DNA of 64,000 bases, taken from assembly GCF_900290195.1 (NCBI RefSeq), contig NZ_OLMF01000004.1, forward strand, positions 795,501 through 859,500, in the 5' to 3' direction. A model generated the notes under the pieces. The model saw only the letters and a list, made by a program, of their open reading frames with translations. It did no database searches and was not told where the DNA came from. The DNA is from Anaerococcus marasmi (GTDB lineage: Bacteria > Bacillota > Clostridia > Tissierellales > Peptoniphilaceae). Both the position numbers and the translations under genes were made by a program. This document shows positions 27,351-38,482 of the stretch, piece after piece (positions within the stretch are counted from its first letter, which is position 1; the number at the start of each line of letters is the position of its first letter).

Positions 27351-28130
27351 CTAATAATTATTAAAAGAATCGCTTGTTCTGACCCTTTTTAATAGATATC
27401 TAAAGCATATCACTCCCAGAATTATCCATACTGTATTAGAGATCAAATAATCTACTATTAAAGAGCTTTCTATACTCTGTCCAAGATACATCTGTCTCAT
27501 TATTTTTATGCCTGCATTAAATGGGATTATGTTAAATAGTCTGCTTCTCACTTCTATCATATCTGATAAAAAAATCAACACTGATTGTAAAATAAATACT
27601 AGGCTTCCTATTTCTTTTTCTATTAGAGATATACCTCCTAATAATAGTCCAAGTCCGTACATTCCTATTAGAGCAGGGAAAGCTACTAGGTAAGATAAGA
27701 GTATGTATAATATATCTTTTGTATCTGCCTTTATATATAGAATAAATATTAGGAAAATAACGAAAAAGCTTAAAAAGCTTATTATTAAATATGTAAGCAT
27801 CTCAATAAAGAGTAGTAGTTCTGCCGAATATTTGCTCTGCATTTTTAATTCAAGAGTTCCCGATACTGACTGTCCCCTAATATTAGCTGAGCTCCAACCT
27901 AAGGCAGTTGTCGATATTTGCCAAAATATAAAACCAATGAGAACTATCATTTTCCCTGAATTAATATCTATTCCATAAGAGTCAGCAAAGGCCGAGTCAA
28001 GACCTGTTATAAATATCGAAAATAATACTATGGCAAATATTAATATATCTGTTAGGAAACTAACCCTATAACTTCTTATCTTTTTTATATCCAAACTAAG
28101 TTCAGTTTTGATTAAATTTATATAGTCCAT
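27351..28130 (-). CDS. ABC-2 type transporter permease
   Basis: A 259-residue protein with about six membrane helices in the ABC-2 permease arrangement (daunorubicin-resistance/NodJ-like): a long N-terminal cytosolic stretch, a first helix SFLTDILIFAIVLFSIFI, the conserved WxxxxxxxxxxxQxxSGTLE region (SSANIRGQSVSGTLELKMQS) and a paired C-terminal helix. It works with the ATPase immediately upstream (8-bp gap). The substrate is unknown. No dedicated regulator or biosynthetic gene is adjacent. Confidence 0.85.
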   Translation of the reverse strand: MDYINLIKTELSLDIKKIRSYRVSFLTDILIFAIVLFSIFITGLDSAFADSYGIDINSGKMIVLIGFIFWQISTTALGWSSANIRGQSVSGTLELKMQSKYSAELLLFIEMLTYLIISFLSFFVIFLIFILYIKADTKDILYILLSYLVAFPALIGMYGLGLLLGGISLIEKEIGSLVFILQSVLIFLSDMIEVRSRLFNIIPFNAGIKIMRQMYLGQSIESSLIVDYLISNTVWIILGVICFRYLLKRVRTSDSFNNY

Positions 28131-28138
28131 ACTTTCTC

Positions 28139-28855
28139 CTAAATAATTGAGTTAATTTCCCTAAACATTTCTCTTATTTCATCATTGGTCATTTGTGAAG
28201 AATATTGATATGTATTTTTGCCTTTCGATATAAACGTATAGTTGTCTGCGATATCACTTATAAAATCAAGGTCATGGGTTGAGATTATAAATTTTCTATC
28301 TGTATCTTTAGATACTTTTAGTATTATATTTTGTAAGTTGAGCTTGGCATCTATATCAAGTCCATCAGAAGGCTCATCTAGAATGATTATTTTGCTATCT
28401 GAGCACAGGCAGCACAACAAAGAAGCTTTCTTCTTCTCACCAGTAGATAGGTCTCCTACATTTCTATTTCTAAATTCTTCCATAGATAGTAGCTTGCTAT
28501 AAGTATCGTACAATTCCTTTACCCTTTTGGAATCTATTCCTTTCAATGCTCCGAAATATCTAACATTGTCATAAACCGAATTTCTAAATCTTAGACCCCT
28601 GTCTCCTGATTGCAGGAAGGATATATTATCCCTTGCCCAGATAGGATAGTCCTTAGCTTGGAAAGATGAATGTATTTCTCCGCTTTCGAAATAATAAATT
28701 CCAGATATAATTTTTAGAATAGTAGTCTTACCTGCTCCATTCGGACCAATCAAGGCTAAAATATTATTATTATCGAAATTAATCGTCCATGTAAAATTAT
28801 CTACCGCTAGTCTATTTTTATAATATCTACTTATATTATTTAATGTAATTTCCAT
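28139..28855 (-). CDS. ABC transporter ATP-binding protein
   Basis: A 238-residue nucleotide-binding domain. Walker A is LIGPNGAGKTTILK, the signature is LSTGEKKKASL (Thr in place of the usual Gly of LSGG), Walker B is SKIIILDEPSDGLD, and the switch His is in ISTHDLDF. It is the partner of the ABC-2 permease downstream. Low GC and the next-door IS element suggest a mobile or accessory context. Confidence 0.9.
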   Translation of the reverse strand: MEITLNNISRYYKNRLAVDNFTWTINFDNNNILALIGPNGAGKTTILKIISGIYYFESGEIHSSFQAKDYPIWARDNISFLQSGDRGLRFRNSVYDNVRYFGALKGIDSKRVKELYDTYSKLLSMEEFRNRNVGDLSTGEKKKASLLCCLCSDSKIIILDEPSDGLDIDAKLNLQNIILKVSKDTDRKFIISTHDLDFISDIADNYTFISKGKNTYQYSSQMTNDEIREMFREINSII

Positions 28856-28974
28856 AAGATCTCCATTTTGAAATTATTTTGATCATTTAATGTATGTGAA
28901 TGTATATATTTAAAATATAACTTATAAAAATAATACGATATTATGATAAATATTTCAAATGCATATGTGGATAG

Positions 28975-30275
28975 AGTCCGTATAATTGTGTAAAAAGAAA
29001 AGGTCATTTGAAACCTAAACTAGTACAATGCTTTTAACCAACAAAAACCAACTAGGAGGAACAAATGACCCAATTACACTTTACAATTAATCAAGAAGAA
29101 ATACAAAATTTAATTAATAAATCTGTAGATAATGAAATTGCTAGATCTATCTTAACAAAAGTTTTTAATGAACTTATGGAAAAAGAAAGAGATGAATATT
29201 TAAATAACAAAGCCTATCAAAGGGATTCTAATAGGACTAGCTATCGTAATGGCTACTATGAACGCGACTACACAACTAAAATAAAAACATTAACCTTAAG
29301 AGTGCCTAGAACAAGAGATGGTAAATTCAGGGCACAAGTCTTTTGAAAGATATCAAATAAATGAAAAAGCACTAATTCCAACCATGCTAGAAATGTATAT
29401 TCAAGGAGTATCAACAAGAAAAGTATCCAAAGTAATAGAAAATATGTGCGGCAAGACATATTCTAAATCCTTTGTATCATCCCTAACTAAAGAACTTGAC
29501 GAAGAAGTAAAACTATGGAGAAATAGCGACCTAAGTGCTACTATGTATCCCTACATAATGGTAGATGTAGTATATATAAAAGTAAGGGAAAACAATCGTG
29601 TAGTATCAAAGGCTTGTCATATTGCAATAGGAATAACTGAAAAAGGAAATAGAGAAATCATAGGCTTAGACCTAAGCTCTAGCGAGAGTGAATACTCCCG
29701 GTCAAACTTCTTTGAATATTTAAAATCTAGAGGACTATCTGGACTCAAAATGGTAATATCAGATGCTCACAAAGGGCTAGTAAAAGCAATAAAAGAAACA
29801 ATCATAAATTTAATATGGCAAAGATGTCAGGTACATTTCTTAAGAAATATCCTATCGAAAGCACCAAAGAAAAACACTGAAGAATCTAGGAATGATATCA
29901 AGACTCTGTTTAAAATCCAAGATATAAACTTGGCAAGAAAATTGAAAGATGAAATATTCTTAAAATACGAAAATGAAAAGAAATTTCAAAACTCCTTAAA
30001 CACCTTAGATGAAGGATTTGAAGATGCTTTTGCATATCTAGCTAACGATGTAATTCATAGTAGACTTAGGTCAACAAATTGCTTAGAAAGATTAAATCAA
30101 GAAGTTAGAAGACGAGAAAAAGTCGTTAGAATATTTCCTAACGAAGATTCAGCCATGCGCCTAATAGGCGCAATCCTCATTGATATCAATGAGGATTGGA
30201 TAACATCTTCTAAATTGTATGTTAGAATGAAATAGTAAATATTGTGCTAGTTTAATTTACACAATATTATGGACT
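28975..30275 (+). mobile_element. IS256-family insertion sequence
   Basis: A 1.3-kb element bounded by imperfect terminal inverted repeats: left end AGTCCGTATAATTGTGTAAA, right end (inverted) AGTCCATAATATTGTGTAAA. It contains one mutator-type transposase, interrupted by a frameshift. I found no convincing 8-9 bp target duplication, so one end may have been rearranged after insertion. Confidence 0.85.
29065..30235 (+). pseudogene. IS256-family (mutator-type) transposase, frameshifted
   Basis: About 390 codons in two frames. The first (29065-29346) ends at GKFRAQVF followed by TGA. The second continues in the +1 frame from SFERYQINEKALIPTMLEMY. The expected uninterrupted reading is ..QVFERYQ.., so one extra T in GTCTTTTGAAAG causes the break. 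The DDE elements remain: MVDVVYIKVR (first Asp), VISDAHKGL (second Asp) and NCLERLNQEVRRRE (Glu). A good ribosome site (AGGAGG) precedes the ATG. Inactive unless +1 frameshifting at TTT-TGA occurs. Confidence 0.85.
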
Positions 30276-30649
30276 TGACTTATAATTTATAATATTGTCA
30301 AGAAAATAATTTATCGAATAATTATTTATATTTTCCAATTATCTAATTCACTTAGACAGAATACAACAAATTCATAATTCTACTAACGATATTTTATAGT
30401 TCAAGGACTTTCTATGGATATTATTTCTCTTAACAAGTCATTTGAATTTTCATTCAATCTTTCTTAACTTAAACAGCAAATTCAGTAAGAATGAATTACT
30501 GCTTACCCATGAATAGGTTTATCAGATCCTGTTAGTAAATATGATTATTCGTACACTAATAGTTTCTTTAGTTCCCTAAATTTCTGACTGAATTAATCAC
30601 AGACTACCTTCTTGCTACTTAATGTTCAGTTCGTGAATACATTCATTTT
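30276..30649. other. AT-rich gap, no gene seen
   Basis: The 374 bp between the IS element and the 3' end of the RiPP operon contain no frame with a ribosome site, no clear hairpin-T terminator and none of the composite repeats found elsewhere in the window. Confidence 0.6.
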
Positions 30650-32203
30650 TTATACGTTTAAATCTATAACATGATCAAATTTATCTAACTCCCTAGAATC
30701 ATGTGTTACAACTATCCATAATTTCTCGCTGTTTTTTAGTAAATTAAAAAATACAGTTTTTGATTCATCATCTAGCGCAGAAGTCGGTTCATCAGCAATA
30801 ATAATGTCGGCATCTTTGTTCAAAGCTCTGATAATAGAAAGTTTCTGAAGCTCTCCACCTGATAGATTAGTTATAGTCTCATATTTATTAATATAATCTA
30901 TGTTGAAAGCTCGAAGACTATCTATGACATCTTCATTTATATTGTAATTGAAATTTTCTGATAAAGTCCCAGAGAACAAAAAAGATGACTGAGGTATATA
31001 TGAAACTCTATCAAATATTAATTTCTCTGAAATCTCCTTATACTCTATATCTTCTATGTTTATAGTTCCTCTATAAGTTTTGTATAGACCTGCTAAAATC
31101 TTTAACAAAGTAGATTTCCCGCTGCCGTTTTTACCTACAATAGCGTAAGATTTTCCCATTGAAAATTCCATATTGAAATTATCAATAGTAGTTTTTTTTG
31201 CTGCCTCATATGTAAAACTCAAATCATTAACAGATATTCTTTTAATTTCCCCTTTAATTGATTTTCCTTTTGGATTTTTGCTGTCCATTATAGACTTAAT
31301 TCTTTTAATAATGCTATCACATGCTTTAATCTGAGTAAATGCACCTGTAATAGAGACAATAGGCTCAAAAGAGTAACCAATTAATTCTATACTAGCTATC
31401 ATTAATCCTATGGAAAGCTGTTCCTTATATATCAACCAGGCCCCCAAAGCATAACCTATCAAATGTATTAACAAGGTTGACTTCATTATGGTTCCATTAG
31501 CTACTTGTGCTAAGTTCATTCTACTTTCTCTTGCTATTTCTTGATAATCTATTTTCATCTTCATCTTATTAATCACCATTCCACTAAGTTTAAAAAACTT
31601 CATAATCGCAAATCCATTGGCAAATTCATTTAAGCTGTCACTCATTTCTTTTACCCTTTCTAAATAAGTATTATTTGAATGTTCTATTTTCTTTGAGAAA
31701 GTTATTGTGACCAATGAACTGATTAATACTAAACCTACTAGCAAAATAATAAACAGCTTATGAATTTGAAGTAGACTTATCAAAGATAAAGTTAATAGCG
31801 ACAGATTAGTAATAATATCTAGGATTGACCTTAAATAGTCGCTTTCTATAATATCAAGATCCTTAAGAAAAAAACTATTTATACCTAGCTTCTGTTCTCT
31901 TAAAAAGTTCTCATACATTTGCTCATACCAACCAGTTACTAATTTATTTTTTATTTCTATATTCCTATTTTTAACCCATCTATTATCAACCTTTATATGG
32001 ATAAAGTAAAAAATTGCTTGTAAAATTAGAATTCCTAATGAAATAAATATGAAATGTTTAGACTGATTGAAATTCTTTTTACCAAGATTGTCTATTATAG
32101 CCGACATGGAAAGGCTAAAGCCAATGATTGAAGCAGAATGAATAAATGATACAATTATTGGCTTTAGTAATGTTTTTTTATCAATTAATTTATTTGACTT
32201 CAT
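30650..32203 (-). CDS. ABC exporter, fused membrane and ATP-binding domains
   Basis: A 517-residue half-transporter. Six membrane helices of the type-1 exporter fold occupy residues about 1-300, and the ATPase follows with Walker A IVGKNGSGKSTLLK, Q-loop SYIPQSSFLFSG, signature LSGGELQKLS, Walker B IIIADEPTSALDD and H-loop VTHDSRE. There is no N-terminal C39 peptidase. As the last gene of the radical-SAM/precursor operon, it most likely exports the modified peptide. It overlaps the upstream small membrane gene by 14 bases. Confidence 0.92.
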   Translation of the reverse strand: MKSNKLIDKKTLLKPIIVSFIHSASIIGFSLSMSAIIDNLGKKNFNQSKHFIFISLGILILQAIFYFIHIKVDNRWVKNRNIEIKNKLVTGWYEQMYENFLREQKLGINSFFLKDLDIIESDYLRSILDIITNLSLLTLSLISLLQIHKLFIILLVGLVLISSLVTITFSKKIEHSNNTYLERVKEMSDSLNEFANGFAIMKFFKLSGMVINKMKMKIDYQEIARESRMNLAQVANGTIMKSTLLIHLIGYALGAWLIYKEQLSIGLMIASIELIGYSFEPIVSITGAFTQIKACDSIIKRIKSIMDSKNPKGKSIKGEIKRISVNDLSFTYEAAKKTTIDNFNMEFSMGKSYAIVGKNGSGKSTLLKILAGLYKTYRGTINIEDIEYKEISEKLIFDRVSYIPQSSFLFSGTLSENFNYNINEDVIDSLRAFNIDYINKYETITNLSGGELQKLSIIRALNKDADIIIADEPTSALDDESKTVFFNLLKNSEKLWIVVTHDSRELDKFDHVIDLNV

Positions 32204-32603
32204 TTCTTTGACTCTTTCTACCTGATAAATAGAAAATTATTAAAGTTACGAAGAATGGTAAAAGCAAGTCTCCAATGCCCAGACCTTCAACTGTTCCGAT
32301 TGCAATGTTTTGGGAACCTAAATCTAAGCTATTCTCTACTATGGTTTTGTATCCCCCTCTTCGATAAAATAGATAACTACCAACTCCATAAACTAGAGTA
32401 TAAATGATTGTATCGAGCAAGCTGCAATGAAAATTATAAATTATTCCATCGTTCTTTCCCTTTACTATATATATAGCTCCTAGCAATATAGGCGAGATTG
32501 CTATCACTAAGTATGTAACAAAGTTTAAATTATTTGATAATAGATTCATAAAAAACATTGCTAGTAAGCTAGAAATCAATACTATAATTGATGTTTTTTT
32601 CAT
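32190..32603 (-). CDS. Small polytopic membrane protein of the RiPP operon
   Basis: A protein of about 137 residues with four hydrophobic segments (IIVLISSLLAMFFMNLL, FVTYLVIAISPILLGAIYIV, a middle one, and LLLPFFVTLIIFYLSG). I do not recognise a family. I start it at the ATG at 32603, with AAGGAG six bases upstream, rather than the ATG seven codons earlier that overlaps the previous stop. Its place between a CPBP protease and the exporter suggests an immunity or export accessory role, which is inference. Confidence 0.7.
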   Translation of the reverse strand: MKKTSIIVLISSLLAMFFMNLLSNNLNFVTYLVIAISPILLGAIYIVKGKNDGIIYNFHCSLLDTIIYTLVYGVGSYLFYRRGGYKTIVENSLDLGSQNIAIGTVEGLGIGDLLLPFFVTLIIFYLSGRKSQRNEVK

Positions 32604-32623
32604 ATTATTCTCCTTTTGTATCA

Positions 32624-33298
32624 TTAAATAAGACTACTCGCATAAATATTATATAGCCAATGTATAACGATATTATTTTTTAAGTCTCTAAATTTATAGT
32701 ATATGGCACATAGGAATGCTGTTATAGGTAATCTATAAATTATGTTTTCTAAAAAACCAGCCCCTGAATGTAATACAAATACAAATATTAATCCAGATAT
32801 AACGTGTGCTACTATACTCTTATTTACCATCTTCTCTAATATGAATGTAACTATCCCTCTATATAGAAATTCTTCAGCAATAGATACACTTATATTTTGC
32901 AATATAACAAGATTTAAGAGCTTATCGCTATCGTACCTTTTGGATAAAAGATAAAATATCACTATAGCTATAATTGATTTTAATATAAAATAAAAATCTA
33001 TTTTGATTTTTTTTATACCTAATTCATAGTAGTTAAAGCTATATTCTTTCTTTAAAATATAGATTGGAAAAATTATAAAACCAAGTAATAAAGAAAAAGC
33101 CGAAAAAATAATAACATTTGTATCACTTGCGTTTCTAGTTAAGGTCAATAATAAAACTAAGGATATACCTGTTATTGACATTGAGCCAATTACAATTGTT
33201 ATTAAATCGAAAATTTCTAATTTTTTCTTAACAAAAAAGTTTTTTATTTTTTTTGATATAGTCATATTTTTCAAATGATTTTTATTAGATGTAGTCAT
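32624..33298 (-). CDS. CPBP family intramembrane (CAAX-type) protease
   Basis: A 224-residue membrane protein with the CPBP (Abi) motifs: SIAEEFLYRGIVTFI (EExxxR, motif 1), HVISGLIFVFVLHSG (FxxxH, motif 2) and a late SAM-proximal helix with IVIHWLYNIYASS (HxxxN). About seven helices. Family members in bacteriocin loci give self-immunity or remove leader peptides. Here it lies in the operon after the ABC permease (14-base overlap), so either job on the 28-residue precursor is plausible. Confidence 0.85.
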   Translation of the reverse strand: MTTSNKNHLKNMTISKKIKNFFVKKKLEIFDLITIVIGSMSITGISLVLLLTLTRNASDTNVIIFSAFSLLLGFIIFPIYILKKEYSFNYYELGIKKIKIDFYFILKSIIAIVIFYLLSKRYDSDKLLNLVILQNISVSIAEEFLYRGIVTFILEKMVNKSIVAHVISGLIFVFVLHSGAGFLENIIYRLPITAFLCAIYYKFRDLKNNIVIHWLYNIYASSLI

Positions 33299-34061
33299 TT
33301 TTTATCTTTTTATGTCCAATATATGAAACCACTAGCAATATAATTAAACTCACTCCTATAGATGTCAGTGTAATCTTTAGTACCTGAGAATAATTTATCC
33401 AATCATTAAAGTCTAAAATATTTTGTAAATGATATTTCGGCATCAAATACTTAATTATAGGGATTGAAGATCCTAATATTTGACCATAAAACAAAGCCAC
33501 AGATATAACAATTGTTTGCAAGGTTCTGAAAAATAAGCCTAAAACCAAACTTAAATTCACAAATGCTACCAGTTCAAATACAATTGCTAGCATTGACATC
33601 GCCATGTAAAAACTATATTGGTCAAAGAATTTGCTGGTTATTATACCATCATCCTTTACGAGTAGTTTTAATATCACAATCGCAATTACAATGAATGCCA
33701 CTAAAGTTATTAACAAAGATTCAGTAACAACTCTTTGCTTTGTCCTCAACAACTTAGTTTTTGATTGTAATTTCGGAAAGTACATCATATAATATCCGCT
33801 TTCTAATTCATATGCCAAAGAGTTAGCAGCAATAACTGAATAAAATATATGAAATATACCGATACTTGAAGCCATACCTAAGCATACTGATACCATGGTA
33901 AATATCGAAATTCCTCCAGCTTTATCGTATTCCATTTGGGTAGCCATATCTGTGTAAACGATGCTATAAGCAAATATCAAAGGTACTAAAAGCGTCAAAA
34001 AGGATATGTAAAACTCGGTCCTATGATAATTTTTATATCTTTCTACTTTCAATAACCTCAT
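33285..34061 (-). CDS. ABC transporter permease of the RiPP operon
   Basis: A 258-residue membrane protein with six helices and no catalytic motif. The layout is like lantibiotic-immunity (LanE/G, EpiE-like) permeases: first helix YISFLTLLVPLIFAYSIVY, a loop with ANSLAYELESGYYMM (the typical E-x-x-x-G before helix 2) and a final helix pair. It overlaps the ATPase by four bases. It probably protects the producer or expels the mature product. Confidence 0.8.
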   Translation of the reverse strand: MRLLKVERYKNYHRTEFYISFLTLLVPLIFAYSIVYTDMATQMEYDKAGGISIFTMVSVCLGMASSIGIFHIFYSVIAANSLAYELESGYYMMYFPKLQSKTKLLRTKQRVVTESLLITLVAFIVIAIVILKLLVKDDGIITSKFFDQYSFYMAMSMLAIVFELVAFVNLSLVLGLFFRTLQTIVISVALFYGQILGSSIPIIKYLMPKYHLQNILDFNDWINYSQVLKITLTSIGVSLIILLVVSYIGHKKIKNDYI

Positions 34062-34942
34062 TTTAGCTCCTCATAAAACATATCTACCAATGATCTATCA
34101 TTTGTTTCTATCTCTATTATTTTCATATCATTGTTGATAATACATGAAAGAAAGTCATTTACCAGCTCATCTTCATCTAATAAGCATATTACATTATTAT
34201 CTTCAAATTGGATATTCTTATATCCTGAAAAAACATCTTTTTTTACTTTATCAAGAATCAGCCTAAACTCAATTCTCTTTTTCATAGGACCATCATAAGA
34301 TACAGTACCGTCTTTAATTAAAATAATATGGTCACATATTTCTGCAACATCATCTAAATCATGGCTAGAAAATATTATCGGAACCCCTTCTTTAGCCTTG
34401 TTTGAAATAGCCTTCTTTACTATATCTTTTCCTATTGGATCTAGTCCAAGAAAAGGTTCATCAAGAACGGTAAAGGTTTTTGAAGTTAATAAAGCTTGGG
34501 CAAGTCCAAGCCTCTGTTTCATACCGTATGAATAATCCTTAACTTTCTTCTTTTTAGCATCCTTTAATTCTACTATTTCTAATATTCTATCTATTTCTTC
34601 ATCAAGTTTTTCATTTTCGATTTTTTCATCCAATTGAAGCAATAATTTTAGGTTTTCATAGCCTGTCAAATAGTTTAAAAAATTACTCTCTATTAATACT
34701 CCAAAATCTTTAACAAGTTCATAATTTGACTTTAATTCTTTTCCATTGACCTCAATGGTTCCTTGCTCATAAGGGTGTATTCCAGTTATTGCCTTCAATA
34801 AAGTTGATTTACCAGCACCATTTTTACCAAGTAATCCTATTATTTCTCCTTCTTTAATTTCAAAATTCACATCAGACAATACTTTCTTGCCACAATAGAT
34901 CTTACCAAAATCTATAGCCTTTAAGAAAATAGATTTATTCAT
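34058..34942 (-). CDS. ABC transporter ATP-binding protein of the RiPP operon
   Basis: A 294-residue ATPase: Walker A GLLGKNGAGKSTLLK, signature YSYGMKQRLGLAQALL, Walker B FTVLDEPFLGLDPIG, H-loop SSHDLDD. About 70 further C-terminal residues are typical of BcrA/NatA-type immunity ATPases. It works with the overlapping permease. It is the first gene after the precursor and is separated from it by a hairpin, so it is probably expressed at a lower level than the precursor. Confidence 0.9.
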   Translation of the reverse strand: MNKSIFLKAIDFGKIYCGKKVLSDVNFEIKEGEIIGLLGKNGAGKSTLLKAITGIHPYEQGTIEVNGKELKSNYELVKDFGVLIESNFLNYLTGYENLKLLLQLDEKIENEKLDEEIDRILEIVELKDAKKKKVKDYSYGMKQRLGLAQALLTSKTFTVLDEPFLGLDPIGKDIVKKAISNKAKEGVPIIFSSHDLDDVAEICDHIILIKDGTVSYDGPMKKRIEFRLILDKVKKDVFSGYKNIQFEDNNVICLLDEDELVNDFLSCIINNDMKIIEIETNDRSLVDMFYEELK

Positions 34943-34981
34943 GTCTTTCTCCTAATTTATTTCATTTCCCTTATAAGAAAT

Positions 34982-35020
34982 CTAGGTCCACAAACACCTA
35001 AATTAATTTGTGGACCTAGT
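34982..35020 (-). terminator. Hairpin (attenuator or processing site) after the precursor gene
   Basis: A perfect 13-bp stem, CTAGGTCCACAAA with its exact complement, and a 12-base loop, 13 bases after the precursor stop. The following minus-strand sequence (ATTTCTTATAAGG) is only weakly T-rich, so partial termination or mRNA stabilisation is more likely than full termination. Such hairpins commonly raise precursor over transporter expression in RiPP operons. Confidence 0.75.
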
Positions 35021-35032
35021 ATCTTAATTTAA

Positions 35033-35119
35033 TTATACTCCGAACACTCCAACTGTTACTGGTATCCTCCAAACTTTAAATGTTCCACATCCTTTTTTAT
35101 TATTGCTTGAAAATAACAT
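35033..35119 (-). CDS. 28-residue RiPP precursor peptide (candidate)
   Basis: A 28-codon gene directly downstream of the radical-SAM gene. It has a near-perfect ribosome site (GAGGAGGTGAA, 7 bases before ATG). The peptide starts MLFSSNNKKGCG, continues TFKVW, and ends RIPVTVGVFGV. It has a single Cys (position 11), Lys15 and Trp17 close together, and a hydrophobic glycine-containing C-terminus; a separate long leader is lacking. I cannot match it to a described class: it is not a Cys-rich sactipeptide, not KxxxW streptide-like, and not YydF-like in length. The placement between a SPASM enzyme and an ABC system, the ribosome site and the following hairpin make expression very likely. Confidence 0.8.
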   Translation of the reverse strand: MLFSSNNKKGCGTFKVWRIPVTVGVFGV

Positions 35120-35154
35120 TTGGTTCACCTCCTCTTTTAATAAATTTCCGTATG

Positions 35155-36357
35155 TTAAAGGGAATTAAAAAAGCTACTAAAATAGGCTTTATAAGTCCCA
35201 CAAAGCGGATCAACGCTAGTAATGTTACCATCGGTGCAATACGCTCTATATCGGCATCCCGCACCACACAAGTAGTTATATTGGCATTCTTGGCAACTAT
35301 CTATATCATCTACAGTAAACTCTACTACAGGATTTAATTTGCTTTGATCTAATATATCTTTCAATCTATTTTCTTGAACATTTCCTAATATAAAATCTTT
35401 CTCTAAAAACATATGGCAAGGAGTTACATTTCCATCAGCATCAATACTTATAATGCTCTTTCCAGCACCACATGATTCCCTACACCCTAATTGTCCCTCG
35501 ATTGATGAATCAAGAACTCTAAAGTTTGACTCTTGTGTAATTCTAGATAACTTTTCATAATCTGACTTTTCTAATATGAAATCTGAAAACATCTCATCAT
35601 CTTTACTAACAAATAAGCTTATATTCATAGAAACATTTAAATTATCTACTATTTTCTTATATTCATCTAAGTAATCTATGTTCTTCTTATGTATGGTCAC
35701 AATAATATTAGTAGGTAAATATTTTTGAGCTTCTTTTATATTATCCATTGTTTTATTGAATATTCCTTCATCTCTTATGAAGCATAGGTCTTCTTTATAA
35801 GAATCCAAAGAAAATGATATAAAGTCAATGTAGCTACTTAGTTTCTTCCAGTCAATATTATTAATAGTTCCGTTTGTAATTAGATTTATATTCGATATAG
35901 ATAAATCTTCCTTTGCATACTTCATTATATCTAATATATCCTGTCTCAAAAACGGCTCCCCTCCAGAAATGACTAAGTTATTAACTCCAACTGACTTTAA
36001 TTCATCCAATATATGCTTCATTGATTCTGTATCTAAATCTAATAGACTATTCCTCATATCTTCAAATGAATAGCAGCCTACACAATGTAAATTACATCTG
36101 TGAGTTACATGTAAATACGCTGATTCTATTCCATTTTCTAAATCACTAAAATATCCTCCTTCAATAAGTGCTGCCGTTAATTCTGGATTTTCGAATTTAA
36201 TTTTTTCAATATCACAACCATCTTCTTCAATATTTTTAATTAAATCATATCCATTTTTATTAAGACCAATTATTGAAGACGTAGATGTGTTACCGATTAT
36301 AGGTATACCATTTATTTTCATCCATCTAATGTTATTATTAAGTTTTTCTTTGCTCAT
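35155..36357 (-). CDS. Radical SAM/SPASM peptide-modifying enzyme
   Basis: A 400-residue enzyme predicted to install a radical-chemistry crosslink or epimerisation on the adjacent precursor. Residues about 15-75 look like a PqqD-like precursor-recognition (RRE) domain. The 4Fe-4S/SAM motif is C88-x3-C92-x2-C95 (RCNLHCVGCY), with GGEP at 132-135. The C-terminal SPASM region has cysteines at 292, 296, 314, 355, 358, 364, 368, 374 and 386, enough for two auxiliary clusters. The ATG has GGAGG four bases upstream. It is the first gene of the operon, driven by the promoter at 36516-36544. Confidence 0.93.
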   Translation of the reverse strand: MSKEKLNNNIRWMKINGIPIIGNTSTSSIIGLNKNGYDLIKNIEEDGCDIEKIKFENPELTAALIEGGYFSDLENGIESAYLHVTHRCNLHCVGCYSFEDMRNSLLDLDTESMKHILDELKSVGVNNLVISGGEPFLRQDILDIMKYAKEDLSISNINLITNGTINNIDWKKLSSYIDFISFSLDSYKEDLCFIRDEGIFNKTMDNIKEAQKYLPTNIIVTIHKKNIDYLDEYKKIVDNLNVSMNISLFVSKDDEMFSDFILEKSDYEKLSRITQESNFRVLDSSIEGQLGCRESCGAGKSIISIDADGNVTPCHMFLEKDFILGNVQENRLKDILDQSKLNPVVEFTVDDIDSCQECQYNYLCGAGCRYRAYCTDGNITSVDPLCGTYKAYFSSFFNSL

Positions 36358-36515
36358 TTATCCTCCATCACAAATTGTATAATAAGTATTTATTAGTATA
36401 ATCAATATTTTCAGCATATAACTAGCGATTATGTGCTTTAATTTTTCACTTAATGTTTTATACTATGTTAAGTTCAGATATCATAGTCTATTGTATTCAC
36501 CTTTTACTTATTTTT

Positions 36516-36544
36516 ATAATATATCAAATTAGGGCAAATTTCAA
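36516..36544 (-). promoter_or_regulatory. Promoter of the radical-SAM operon
   Basis: Minus-strand TTGAAA (36539-36544), a spacer of exactly 17, and TATTAT (36516-36521). The -35 box overlaps the left arm of the palindrome at 36541-36562. The predicted leader before the enzyme gene is about 150 nt. Confidence 0.65.
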
Positions 36545-36562
36545 AGGCACATATGCCTTTGA
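36541..36562. promoter_or_regulatory. Palindromic operator candidate between divergent promoters
   Basis: Eight-base arms TCAAAGGC and GCCTTTGA around ACATAT. The left arm covers the -35 of the leftward promoter, and the right arm covers the -35 of the rightward one. This is the only strong inverted repeat in the 355-bp region between enzyme and pheromone genes. It is a natural binding site for the dimeric XRE/TPR regulator encoded next door. Confidence 0.65.
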
Positions 36563-36587
36563 CAATCAAGATATTATTAACTAAGAT
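36559..36587 (+). promoter_or_regulatory. Promoter of the pheromone-like peptide gene
   Basis: Plus-strand TTGACA (36559-36564), 17-base spacer, TAAGAT (36582-36587). The -35 overlaps the right arm of the palindrome. Transcription would start near 36594, about 118 nt before the peptide ORF. Confidence 0.65.
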
Positions 36588-36711
36588 TTATATAAGGCAA
36601 ACCATTAAATATCAAGAAATATAATTAATCTTGTTATTTGTGACTTGTCAAGGAATACTAATCTTTAGGATTAAAATTATTTACGATAAATAAATATTAG
36701 GAGGTGATTTT

Positions 36712-36852
36712 ATAAAAAAGCTTAAGAGATTCTTATTCTTTATTTCTTTATTTGCAATAACTTATATATGCTTTACTAATGTATCCTATGCTATTTATGG
36801 CAACGAAGATGATATAGATATAAAAAGCATTGAATGTTACTCACCGATTTGA
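36712..36852 (+). CDS. Secreted pheromone-like peptide, non-canonical AUA start (candidate)
   Basis: A 46-residue frame with no ATG, GTG or TTG. It is preceded by AGGAGGTGAT (36699-36708), a 10-base perfect match to the 16S anti-Shine-Dalgarno, seven bases before an ATA codon. The product (written from that codon) has a basic start KKLKR, a hydrophobic core FLFFISLFAITYICF and a signal-peptidase-like NVSYA site. The mature tail is IYGNEDDIDIKSIECYSPI. Size and layout recall PapR-type precursors of RRNPP quorum sensing, with the tail as pheromone. It has its own promoter and terminator and converges on the XRE/TPR regulator. An ATG-to-ATA inactivated gene is the alternative. Confidence 0.6.
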   Translation: MKKLKRFLFFISLFAITYICFTNVSYAIYGNEDDIDIKSIECYSPI

Positions 36853-36860
36853 CAAATAAT

Positions 36861-36904
36861 AAAGTAGCTAGTTTAAAAATGAATTTAATCTAGCTACTTT
36901 TTTT
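36861..36904 (+). terminator. Terminator of the peptide gene
   Basis: Stem AAAGTAGCTAG / CTAGCTACTTT, 18-base loop, followed by a run of seven T residues that extends into the stop region of the convergent regulator gene. Confidence 0.85.
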
Positions 36905-37787
36905 AAGGTTTGTAAATAATTTTGTTTATTTTCTCATTTATTGCCATACTAAGTTTTAAATTTTTGCTATATTTTGAAAGAATAATAGTTGAATGCAAAC
37001 TTTTTTCATAATTTTCATTTGCTCTATAAAGAGTTATAAATTTTACAAAATTAAGATAAATTAGTCCATCTATTGAAGATAACTCACTTGATAATATTAA
37101 TCCTTCATTTATTGTTTCAATTGTTTTGTTAAAATTTCCATAATGCTTATAGAAATTTGCAAGATTATTGCAAGATGCTATTTTTATCATAGAGTCCTTA
37201 TTTTGATTTTTACACTTTTCAAGTATTTCTAGTGAATCAATGTTTTTAAAAGATTTTGAACTTGTAGCTATATTTAATAAAATACGTAGTTCTATAGGAT
37301 ATAAGTCTACAGTAGAAAAATTTCCCCTCTTTATCTTTGACGAGCTTAGGTCTTCAAAATGATTTTTTAAATACTCATCGCTTACTTCAGCGTTAAGATA
37401 TCTAATAAAAAGTTCCAGTAAGTCTATCTCATATCTTTTTGCTTGGAGATCTCTACTATCTTTTATCGAGTTGATTTTATCTAATAAATTCGTTCTTGTT
37501 TCTTTGCTTAAAAATACGGCATTGATATCAAGTGATTTTTTTATATCTTCTAAAATGCACAAATTCCCATAGATATATTTCTTATATAAACTCAGAACAT
37601 CAATTCCATATGCTTTAGACAACTCTATTAAGCTATCTACAGATGCGGATTCAATCTCTCCTCTTTCAAGTCTTCCTATAGATCTTTGGCTCAAATTTGC
37701 AATTTCTGCTACATCAGATTGCCTAAGACCTTTTATTTCCCTTATTTCTATTAGTTTTTTGCCAAATTCTTTTCTTTTGTCTGTCAT
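36903..37787 (-). CDS. XRE-family regulator with TPR-like C-terminus (RRNPP type)
   Basis: A 294-residue protein. An N-terminal helix-turn-helix of the XRE/Cro type lies at residues about 8-60 (LRQSDVAEIANLSQRSIGRL). An all-helical region of about 220 residues follows, with repeating pairs such as KIASCNNLANFYKHYGNFNK and YLNFVKFITLYRANENYEKS that look like TPRs. This is the architecture of PlcR, Rgg, ComR and PrgX, which bind secreted peptides re-imported by oligopeptide permeases. Next to the candidate pheromone and the divergent promoters, it is the probable switch for the radical-SAM operon. Confidence 0.8.
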   Translation of the reverse strand: MTDKRKEFGKKLIEIREIKGLRQSDVAEIANLSQRSIGRLERGEIESASVDSLIELSKAYGIDVLSLYKKYIYGNLCILEDIKKSLDINAVFLSKETRTNLLDKINSIKDSRDLQAKRYEIDLLELFIRYLNAEVSDEYLKNHFEDLSSSKIKRGNFSTVDLYPIELRILLNIATSSKSFKNIDSLEILEKCKNQNKDSMIKIASCNNLANFYKHYGNFNKTIETINEGLILSSELSSIDGLIYLNFVKFITLYRANENYEKSLHSTIILSKYSKNLKLSMAINEKINKIIYKP

Positions 37788-37991
37788 CTTAGCCCCTATG
37801 TATCTATAATTTAATATAATAATATCATAAATCAGGCGGATAATAAATGAATAATCTCATTCTATCAGGATAATTGGTTGTATTTTGAAAAATCAGAAAA
37901 ATTTAAAATTAAAAAGGACCATTGCTTATATAACAAAAGTCCAATGTTAAATTCAGAATCTTTTTCAGAGATTTTGTAAGGAAAGTAATCT

Positions 37992-38126
37992 TTTTAGAAG
38001 CAATGCTCGTTTTCCTCGCATCACTTCTAAAAAATTACATAAGGTTTCTCATCAGTTTTTACTTCGCAATCTTTGCTTGCTCGAAAAACTGTGAGAATCG
38101 AAAAAAACATCGCTTACGATGTTTTT
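37992..38126. terminator. Cluster of hairpins including the rplS operon terminator
   Basis: Three inverted repeats in a row. TTTTAGAAG..ATGC pairs with GCAT..CTTCTAAAA (37992-38032), and TTCTCA..CAGTTTTT pairs with AAAAACTG..TGAGAA (about 38047-38098). AAAAAACATCG-CTTA-CGATGTTTTTT (38101-38126) is the strongest and ends the minus-strand rplS operon just after its stop. The gap 37788-37991 holds the upstream region of the regulator and otherwise nothing I recognise. Confidence 0.75.
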
Positions 38127-38134
38127 TTCTACCA

Positions 38135-38482
38135 TTAGTAATTTGTTTTTTCTTTAACTTTAGCTGCCTTACCTTGACGATTTCTAAGGTATTTAAGTTT
38201 AGCTCTTCTTACCTTACCACGTCTAACAACGTGAAGTTTTTCGATTCTTGGTGAATGATATTGGAATGTTCTTTCTACTCCAACTCCGTAGCTGATTCTT
38301 CTAACTGTGAAAGATTTGTTGATTCCACCTTCATTGATATAGATTACAGTTCCTTCGAAGTCTTGGAGTCTTTCCTTATCTCCCTCTTTGATTCTGTAGC
38401 TTAGTCTTATTGTATCTCCTACGTTGAAATCGAAGTTTTCTTTACGTAGGTTTTCTTGTTCAATTTTTTTGATTAATTCCAT
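38135..38482 (-). CDS. rplS: 50S ribosomal protein L19
   Basis: A 115-residue L19 at the 30S-50S interface. [46 protein letters not shown] and [20 protein letters not shown] are conserved family blocks. It overlaps trmD by 23 bases and ends the SRP/ribosome operon with a strong terminator. Confidence 0.98.

Follow-up and report, generated by a model that had tools for sequence, protein, structure and literature searches.

What does the locus at 30650-37787 of the stretch of Anaerococcus marasmi DNA analysed here (64,000 nucleotides of contig NZ_OLMF01000004.1, hereafter the window; its genome is G000, of 2.13 Mb, and the contig is C2 there) make, and what switches it on? An earlier note had described it as a radical S-adenosylmethionine (SAM) peptide system with its own quorum-type switch, and indeed all the parts that it named lie where it had placed them, on the minus strand and open for reading, with a pheromone-like open reading frame (ORF) on the plus strand. 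We think it likely that the locus is a cassette for a ribosomally synthesized and post-translationally modified peptide (RiPP) under an RRNPP-type switch, in which the enzyme introduces a Cys thioether into a peptide whose leader is some ten residues long; we hold the RiPP nature and the co-regulation with more confidence than the chemistry. The features, in window coordinates, are:

36903-37787, minus strand: XRE/TPR-like regulator, probably of the RRNPP type, 294 residues (HTH_3, 1.1e-9)
36712-36852, plus strand: candidate pheromone precursor ORF of 46 residues that starts with ATA, has a signal-like N terminus and ends in ...IDIKSIECYSPI, with AGGAGGTGA just upstream
36542-36561, no strand: candidate palindromic operator, 20 bp, CAAAGGCACATATGCCTTTG (recurrence in the genus)
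36559-36587, plus strand: promoter-like site facing the pheromone, TTGACA-17-TAAGAT (promoter scan)
36516-36544, minus strand: promoter-like site facing the cassette, TTGAAA-17-TATTAT (promoter scan)
35155-36357, minus strand: radical SAM/SPASM enzyme, 400 residues (domain matches at 4.5e-21 and 2.7e-11)
35033-35119, minus strand: candidate RiPP precursor, 28 residues, MLFSSNNKKGCGTFKVWRIPVTVGVFGV (ORF, ribosome-binding site (RBS), family conservation)
34982-35019, minus strand: RNA hairpin with a 14-bp stem directly 3' of the precursor (minimum free energy -24.7, z -6.1)
34058-34942, minus strand: ABC ATPase, putatively for self-protection (best NCBIfam match TIGR03740)
33285-34061, minus strand: membrane protein, candidate permease partner (ORF call; no Pfam match)
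32624-33298, minus strand: CPBP intramembrane protease, candidate leader peptidase (Pfam, Rce1-like, 7.8e-12)
32190-32624, minus strand: small membrane protein (ORF call)
30650-32203, minus strand: ABC exporter with ABC_membrane and ABC_tran, no peptidase domain being matched (domain scan)

The 28-residue ORF has a 9-nt RBS match, and the case for it as a precursor comes mainly from what lies beside related enzymes. At 1e-40 the enzyme has relatives in five of the 130 genomes of its own family, G000 included; further close relatives are present in G426 and G569 (phylum sample, 398 genomes), beside these in G648 (3 of 13 genomes) and on a plasmid of Streptococcus salivarius. Nine close loci were thus considered, those of G000, G025, G021, G072, G076, G426, G569, G648 and the plasmid. 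Seven of them carry short peptides of one build beside the enzyme gene, 14 in total, and in the two that do not (G025, G076) the contig stops at the enzyme gene. The G021 precursor reads MLFRSKKALAPGCISVGPFGVCISYGKNW, G072 has tandem MKLLGKNAPLCVTIVFVSVGYSRKLWGGTVRV-like peptides (three readable copies and one masked) and G648 has four peptides. The alignment of the 14 peptides shows no variation at M1, C11 and G24 (numbered as in the window precursor) and a further motif, [STD]-[IVY]-G, which is TVG in the window; the number of Cys is one or two. What had been described as "almost no leader" is better put as a short basic N-terminal segment ahead of a conserved Cys.

Chance was assessed with ORFs of 24-48 residues and an RBS match of at least 7 nt in 37 sequences (501 kb; L012, L051 and ORFs with masked bases left out). 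The pattern M[LIK]-x7-12-C-x2-[IVF] fits 8 of the 13 such ORFs in six family loci and none of the 15 in the 31 other sequences. With an RBS match of 5-6 nt it fits two background ORFs, one of which (L028) is a genuine relative, and with the RBS filter removed it fits 32 of 1816 ORFs in family loci as against 42 of 4672 in the others. Since the pattern was derived from the members themselves, this is post hoc support and not a blind test. Taken together, the window precursor is evidently more than a chance ORF. No model in NCBIfam or Pfam was found for the ten peptides scanned, which agrees, for these libraries, with the statement that the precursor matches no known class; a plasmid search with the window precursor alone returned nothing. 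In G648 (L051 4022-7598) the enzyme gene is split around two alike ORFs (one tested) and a DDE transposase, with the precursors retained.

The earlier note had made its proposal depend on short peptides being conserved beside homologous enzymes; they are found not only in the seven close loci but also in all 13 genomes of a second family, where the enzyme is present at 1e-60 in every genome with a peptide beside it. These enzymes are 46-76% identical among themselves and about 28% identical to the window enzyme. More distant profile matches (1e-51 to 1e-56) lie in G150, G161, G401, G612, G296 and G451, and in the last four a peptide such as MYGKLGGKKIRFDLAIDGFCFTFRLWGHRITIG stands 84-319 nt upstream of the enzyme gene. 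The second-family peptides end in C-[FI]-T-F-x-L-W-x3-[VI]-T-I-G, with F replaced by I after the Cys in one genome, and the spacing equals that of CGTFKVWRIPVTVG in the window: C-F-T-F-R-L-W-G-H-R-I-T-I-G and the window's C-G-T-F-K-V-W-R-I-P-V-T-V-G agree in C, T, F, W, T and G, which gives the shared core C-x-T-F-x-[VL]-W-x3-[VI]-T-[VI]-G. In its strict form and with overlapping loci allowed for, this core occurs in 94 sequences only at the window and the G401, G612, G296 and G451 loci; a looser pattern gave 44 matches in which family members and chance are mixed. The Cys is invariant in all 27 peptides of both families. The K-V-W centre, to which attention had been drawn before, held up in part: the 13 second-family peptides all have the W, but in place of K they have R, Q, S or P, and the other 13 close-family peptides retain neither residue. 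For the 33-residue start, some second-family genomes have a strong RBS (L096, L097: AGGAGGTG, six bases upstream of the ATG), others a weak one. Unlike the peptides of the close family, that of the second family is nearly unchanged, which suggests a conserved function. No peptide of the core type lies by the G150 enzyme. In G161 (L030 near 9.8 kb) a different, Cys-rich peptide, MENFDVKVVDFENEKPKDCACECGIASGSGAGSGILDE, with a strong RBS stands 234 nt before the radical SAM gene.

The remainder of the cassette travels with the enzyme to varying extents. G021 has the order precursor, enzyme, ATPase, permease, CPBP protein, small membrane protein and exporter, as in the window save for the precursor's place, and G072 has the window gene set in changed order; in G426 and G569 the enzyme adjoins the CPBP gene and the remainder is different. 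In the second family a CPBP Pfam match follows the enzyme directly in all three loci tested (of four), where blastp at 1e-3 had shown none, and next come an ABC ATPase and then, where tested, an ABC-2 permease. The regulators are another matter: G021 has a histidine kinase, G072 a response regulator with a kinase, and the S. salivarius plasmid LytTR and GHKL proteins. Because the gene set recurs in G021 and G072 while the regulators differ, the cassette is, judged by gene content, a unit, and the RRNPP-type switch apparently belongs to the window's lineage.

As to the single parts, the ATPase matches TIGR03740, the lantibiotic-protection ATPase, at 6.2e-52 with 176.5 bits, under the cut-off of 309.75. 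In L010, L011 and L024, too, the gene after that for the ATPase encodes a membrane protein, and proteins of 140-170 residues, comparable to the small membrane protein in size and position, lie near the locus in L010, L011, L024, L026 and L027. CPBP residues E142, E143, R147, H177, H213 and N217 are among those invariant in six relatives. The hairpin after the window precursor was matched in stability by none of 200 shuffles and was not called a terminator by the scan; hairpins also follow the KGDGW precursors described below (z -7.2 and -5.8), and the one in G021 is weak (z -1.4). An Rfam scan of 30000-38200 gave zero matches. On the S. salivarius plasmid (L024 5583-9825) the enzyme gene of the cassette relative is in two parts, with an ISSag10 transposase and lnu(C) in between.

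What would switch the cassette on? Regulators at least 61% identical to that of the window were found in 8 of the 130 genomes, G000 included. In an AlphaFold2 model of the regulator (pLDDT 53.9) the top 17 Protein Data Bank rows, from 10 entries, are all PrgX, ComR, PlcR, Rgg2 or NprR, none of them below an E value of 0.001. Rgg models exist in libraries such as Pfam and NCBIfam, and none is among the regulator's 7 Pfam and 9 NCBIfam matches; the C terminus of the pheromone contains D, E and K, against the short hydrophobic peptide (SHP) type. From the helix-turn-helix domain, the adjacent pheromone ORF and the low-confidence fold we read the regulator as probably RRNPP-type. An ORF like a pre-pheromone with a signal-like N terminus does adjoin it, as expected of such systems at the level of sequence. 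In the window this ORF reads (ATA)KKLKRFLFFISLFAITYICFTNVSYAIYGNEDDIDIKSIECYSPI. The locus has a near relative in Anaerococcus sp. SUG34 (L005), a metagenome-assembled genome. In the sister metagenome-assembled genome this ORF begins with ATG, and comparison with the window shows 8 synonymous and 2 non-synonymous changes, one of the latter being the start codon (Fisher p 2.8e-5). The ORF is therefore under purifying selection. G026 and G027 (L075/L077), whose regulators are 62-63% identical to that of the window, have a counterpart, MKKFRFLILVSLMFIMPFLSTMNESLADDEDNIVMIKSTTYISESI, at the same place, with the same kind of RBS and convergent to the homologous regulator. Of the earlier claim of an RRNPP-like regulator with a candidate pheromone, the ORF thus proved real and conserved, but in this genome it starts with ATA and not with ATG.

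Between the divergent pheromone and cassette promoters lies CAAAGGCACATATGCCTTTG, one end of which is overlapped by TTGACA on the pheromone side and the other by TTGAAA on the cassette side. Promoter-like sites as such are not enriched over shuffles (59 vs 57.8), so the pair at the operator counts by position and recurrence only. With up to one mismatch, CAAAGGCANATNTGCCTTTG is present in 7 of the 31 Anaerococcus genomes searched, G000 among them, and the reversed-pattern control in none of the 31. The regulator, at no less than the 61% identity given above, is present in 7/7 genomes with the operator and in 1/24 of the others (Fisher p 3e-6, for genomes that share ancestry and are not independent). 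The eighth regulator genome, G022, has a copy of the operator with three mismatches at the expected place. Of nine operator sites, the one at 1163142 of G000 was rejected as a hairpin-like gene end. In G027 contig C46 (L090 5424-7208) an operator and a regulator remnant stand ahead of two ABC exporter genes.

Different payloads lie behind this switch. In G000, and in G025 up to the contig end, it is a radical SAM cassette of the window type. In G026, and in G027 with a broken enzyme, it is a streptide-like cassette with the precursors ...AKGDGWSNTITIK and ...AKGDGWEKTISIM, in which AKGDGW is present; streptide is given as AKGDGWKVM (PMC12445099). The enzyme of G026 and G027 is of the TIGR04080 type (1.2e-60; in G026 the score is 205 bits, the cut-off being 500), and among 249 genomes of the order TIGR04080 matched at 1e-30 only in the L077 (10900-14086) and L075 genomes. 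G033 has what appears to be the exporter of the streptide-like cassette without its enzyme, G014 and G009 have another exporter, and G022 has an ABC pair only. A pair like that of G022 persists in the window, next to a Mutator-family transposase and to what may be half of a decayed operator:

28956-28969, minus strand: possible relic half-operator, CACATATGCATTTG, ahead of the second ABC pair (alignment with G022)
27351-28855, minus strand: second pair of ABC ATPase and membrane protein (in G022 the counterpart stands directly after the regulator and a decayed operator)

The Mutator-family (PF00872) element extends over 28975-30275 with inverted ends that are alike; its transposase is split over two overlapping frames, 29065-29346 and 29318-30235, and it is therefore probably broken.

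The regulator adjoins rplS in six of its eight genomes (G000, G025, G014, G009, G033, G022) and lies elsewhere in G026 and G027. Between the window and G022, identity is 98.7% in the flank towards rplS, 93.9% in the opposite flank and 80% in the regulator (414 nt aligned); with G033 the flanks are 93.0% and 92.3% identical (85.7% in a further stretch) and the regulator 73%. The corresponding values are 82.0%, 77.5% and 75% for G009, and 82.8% with a regulator at 74% for G014. GC is 0.287 in the cassette, 0.264 in the regulator and 0.361 in the window. We infer that regulator, pheromone and cassette may have been exchanged as a block between Anaerococcus species, often beside rplS. A point against this is that in G009 and G014 the divergence of the regulator (74-75% identity) does not clearly exceed that of the flanks (77-83%); because those flanks diverge similarly, the contrast is confined to the near relatives G022 and G033. 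It is tempting to speculate, at somewhat less than even odds, that the site is a chromosomal socket for peptide sensing, commonly by rplS, behind which transporters and unrelated radical SAM RiPP cassettes change places together with the alleles of regulator and pheromone. The cassettes would be of a new short-leader class with the shared core in the window and streptide-like elsewhere. On this view the same RiPP class is fixed and nearly invariant in another family, maybe as a conserved signal or cofactor and not as a weapon. Since the cassettes would be swapped together with these alleles, signal specificity and product would change together.

How could the locus work? In the proposed sequence of events the pre-pheromone would be exported, processed to its C-terminal end and taken up again, whereupon it would bind the RRNPP-type regulator acting at the palindrome between the divergent promoters. 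The regulator would then switch on the pheromone gene, in a positive feedback, together with the cassette. The enzyme's profile matches the solved structure of CteB best (5wgg, positions 5-380, 2e-33), followed by the anaerobic sulfatase-maturating enzyme 4k37 (1.5e-24) and SkfB 6efn (2.6e-22). Its N-terminal region aligns with that of CteB, which we take to be a RiPP recognition element (RRE), and an RRE-like domain could thus bind the precursor by its short basic N terminus. The enzyme would most likely link C11 by a thioether to a residue further along the peptide, with loss of 2 Da, and the CPBP protease would cut off the N-terminal segment. Finally, the exporter would send out the product, presumably an active one, and the ABC pair would protect the producer. 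A single-sequence structure model of the enzyme was too poor to use (pLDDT 41.7) and was dropped. PADLOC matches to viperin and mads proved to be superfamily-level only, viral contigs (14 loci) were discarded as their match is limited to 82-96 residues of the common core, and a search of phage records at 1e-20 found nothing.

Several observations weigh against this proposal, and some of them lead to other chemistries. The enzyme that outranks SkfB in the profile search is an anaerobic sulfatase-maturating enzyme and not a thioether synthase. The second-family peptide is nearly invariant with its W kept, and the Cys may not be the sole reacting residue. A link through the conserved Trp, either a Trp-Cys bond or, like those of streptide and tryglysin, a Lys/Arg-Trp bond, would accommodate W17 at identical spacing throughout the second family, the fact that WgkB is the top NCBIfam match of the enzyme (1.8e-31, 109.5 of 650 bits, below the cut-off) and the presence of a KGDGW cassette behind the same switch in sister species. 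However, Lys is the very residue that the second family replaces, the other 13 close-family peptides have no Trp in the column (3 by gap), TIGR04080, the streptide enzyme, has no match in G000 at 1e-30, and a search of the window precursor for K-x-x-x-W found K-x-W instead; a Trp link thus seems quite unlikely. None of the best 25 of the enzyme's 79 NCBIfam matches reaches its curated cut-off (StsB 107.2/625 bits, PapB 82.4/340 bits). A YydG-type model is not among these best 25, which, like the Cys in all 27 peptides, speaks against an epipeptide whose residues in the VTVGVFGV end are epimerised as by YydG/EpeE. The layout of short peptide, radical SAM enzyme, membrane protease and ABC pair does resemble yydFGHIJ/epeXEPAB, and we still hold this explanation rather improbable.

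The switch meets objections of its own. Hidden Markov model searches reach no RRNPP chain, the regulator profile at an E value of 0.01 matching a designed TPR chain and helix-turn-helix chains, and the fold match depends on a model with a pLDDT of 54. One operator match in the window's own genome resembles a hairpin at a gene end. Window-type operator and regulator were not sought in the second family, and there is no evidence of the window switch there. An ordinary XRE repressor without peptide sensing, with another role for the convergent ORF, would fit the hidden Markov model searches, which show only a generic helix-turn-helix and weak TPR matches, and the ATA start of the ORF; yet every one of the top 17 structural rows is an RRNPP protein, and the ORF is under purifying selection, shares the operator with the cassette and in two lineages is convergent to the regulator, which makes a plain repressor improbable. 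The ATA start may also mean that the signal is weak or lost in this genome. Several sister switches are indeed decayed, with an internal stop in the G026 regulator, one in the G027 enzyme and an early one in the G033 pheromone, and together with the two-frame transposase next door this could indicate that the cassette is decayed or silent here too. With six cassette proteins, precursor and regulator all open, we regard this as unlikely, and an RRNPP-type-switched RiPP cassette with a thioether-forming enzyme remains our preferred explanation.

RiPPs made by radical SAM enzymes (RaS-RiPPs) under Rgg/SHP control are well known in streptococci, where several cassette types share one switch type (PMC13361665, PMC12445099). 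They resemble the window in having a cytosolic peptide-sensing regulator, a pre-pheromone and a radical SAM cassette with exporter under one switch. Unlike streptide and the Rgg systems, the window has no Rgg match, no enzyme cut-off reached among the best 25 of 79, an additional CPBP gene and ABC pair, and an Anaerococcus host. TprA/PhrA and TprA2/PhrA2 of pneumococcus share with it a PlcR-type regulator, a peptide gene on the opposite strand, and ABC genes and a RiPP cluster downstream (PMC5436883 and, for the kinship to PlcR, PMC12445099). The payload of TprA/PhrA is a lanthipeptide, unlike that of the window.

Among systems with a radical SAM enzyme and a small Cys peptide, the sporulation killing factor (SKF) has a CPBP-type protease and subtilosin A a very short leader. 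The window resembles both in enzyme and peptide type, as the SkfB match also indicates, but its precursor is dissimilar by eye and its enzyme is closer to CteB. With SCIFF/CteB, the best solved relative, the match spans the N-terminal region and SPASM. SCIFF peptides are Cys-rich, whereas those of the window family have one or two Cys. Within the genus, the Apre_1838 family sactipeptide of A. prevotii pAPRE01 likewise belongs to a radical SAM peptide cluster (TIGR04067, 3.7e-37), but it has a 65-residue precursor, an enzyme 30% identical over 208 columns, a response regulator and kinase upstream, and no CPBP protein among the listed features. The same plasmid (L093 46793-48492) carries a 41-residue Cys-rich peptide before an enzyme with AlbA as its best NCBIfam match (3.7e-29, below the cut-off), possibly subtilosin-like.

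The suggestion that the combination would be new in an anaerobic coccus has to be narrowed accordingly, as sactipeptide-type genes were already annotated on pAPRE01 and Rgg/SHP RaS-RiPPs are known; the precursor family and the non-Rgg switch stand. In the literature searched, which mostly excludes subscription papers so that an earlier description is possible, RRNPP together with Anaerococcus gave no hit, and neither did radical SAM, RiPP, CPBP, precursor peptide and Streptococcus jointly; Anaerococcus, radical SAM and RiPP co-occur in one paper. Within the reach of these searches, novelty lies in the precursor family, in the palindrome and its non-Rgg regulator, and in the two unrelated cassettes behind one switch type.

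Control of radical SAM RiPPs by cell density has been studied mainly in streptococci, and the locus, if our proposal is true, would add a non-Rgg branch in anaerobic cocci. With a leader this short, of some ten residues, the 28-residue precursor and its enzyme would form an economical pair, and a precursor class unnamed in the searched libraries would be shared with a Streptococcus plasmid and, in almost the same form throughout, with all 13 second-family genomes. Since one type of regulator and palindrome stands before two cassettes in sister species, induction, product and exchange could be tested with defined peptides.

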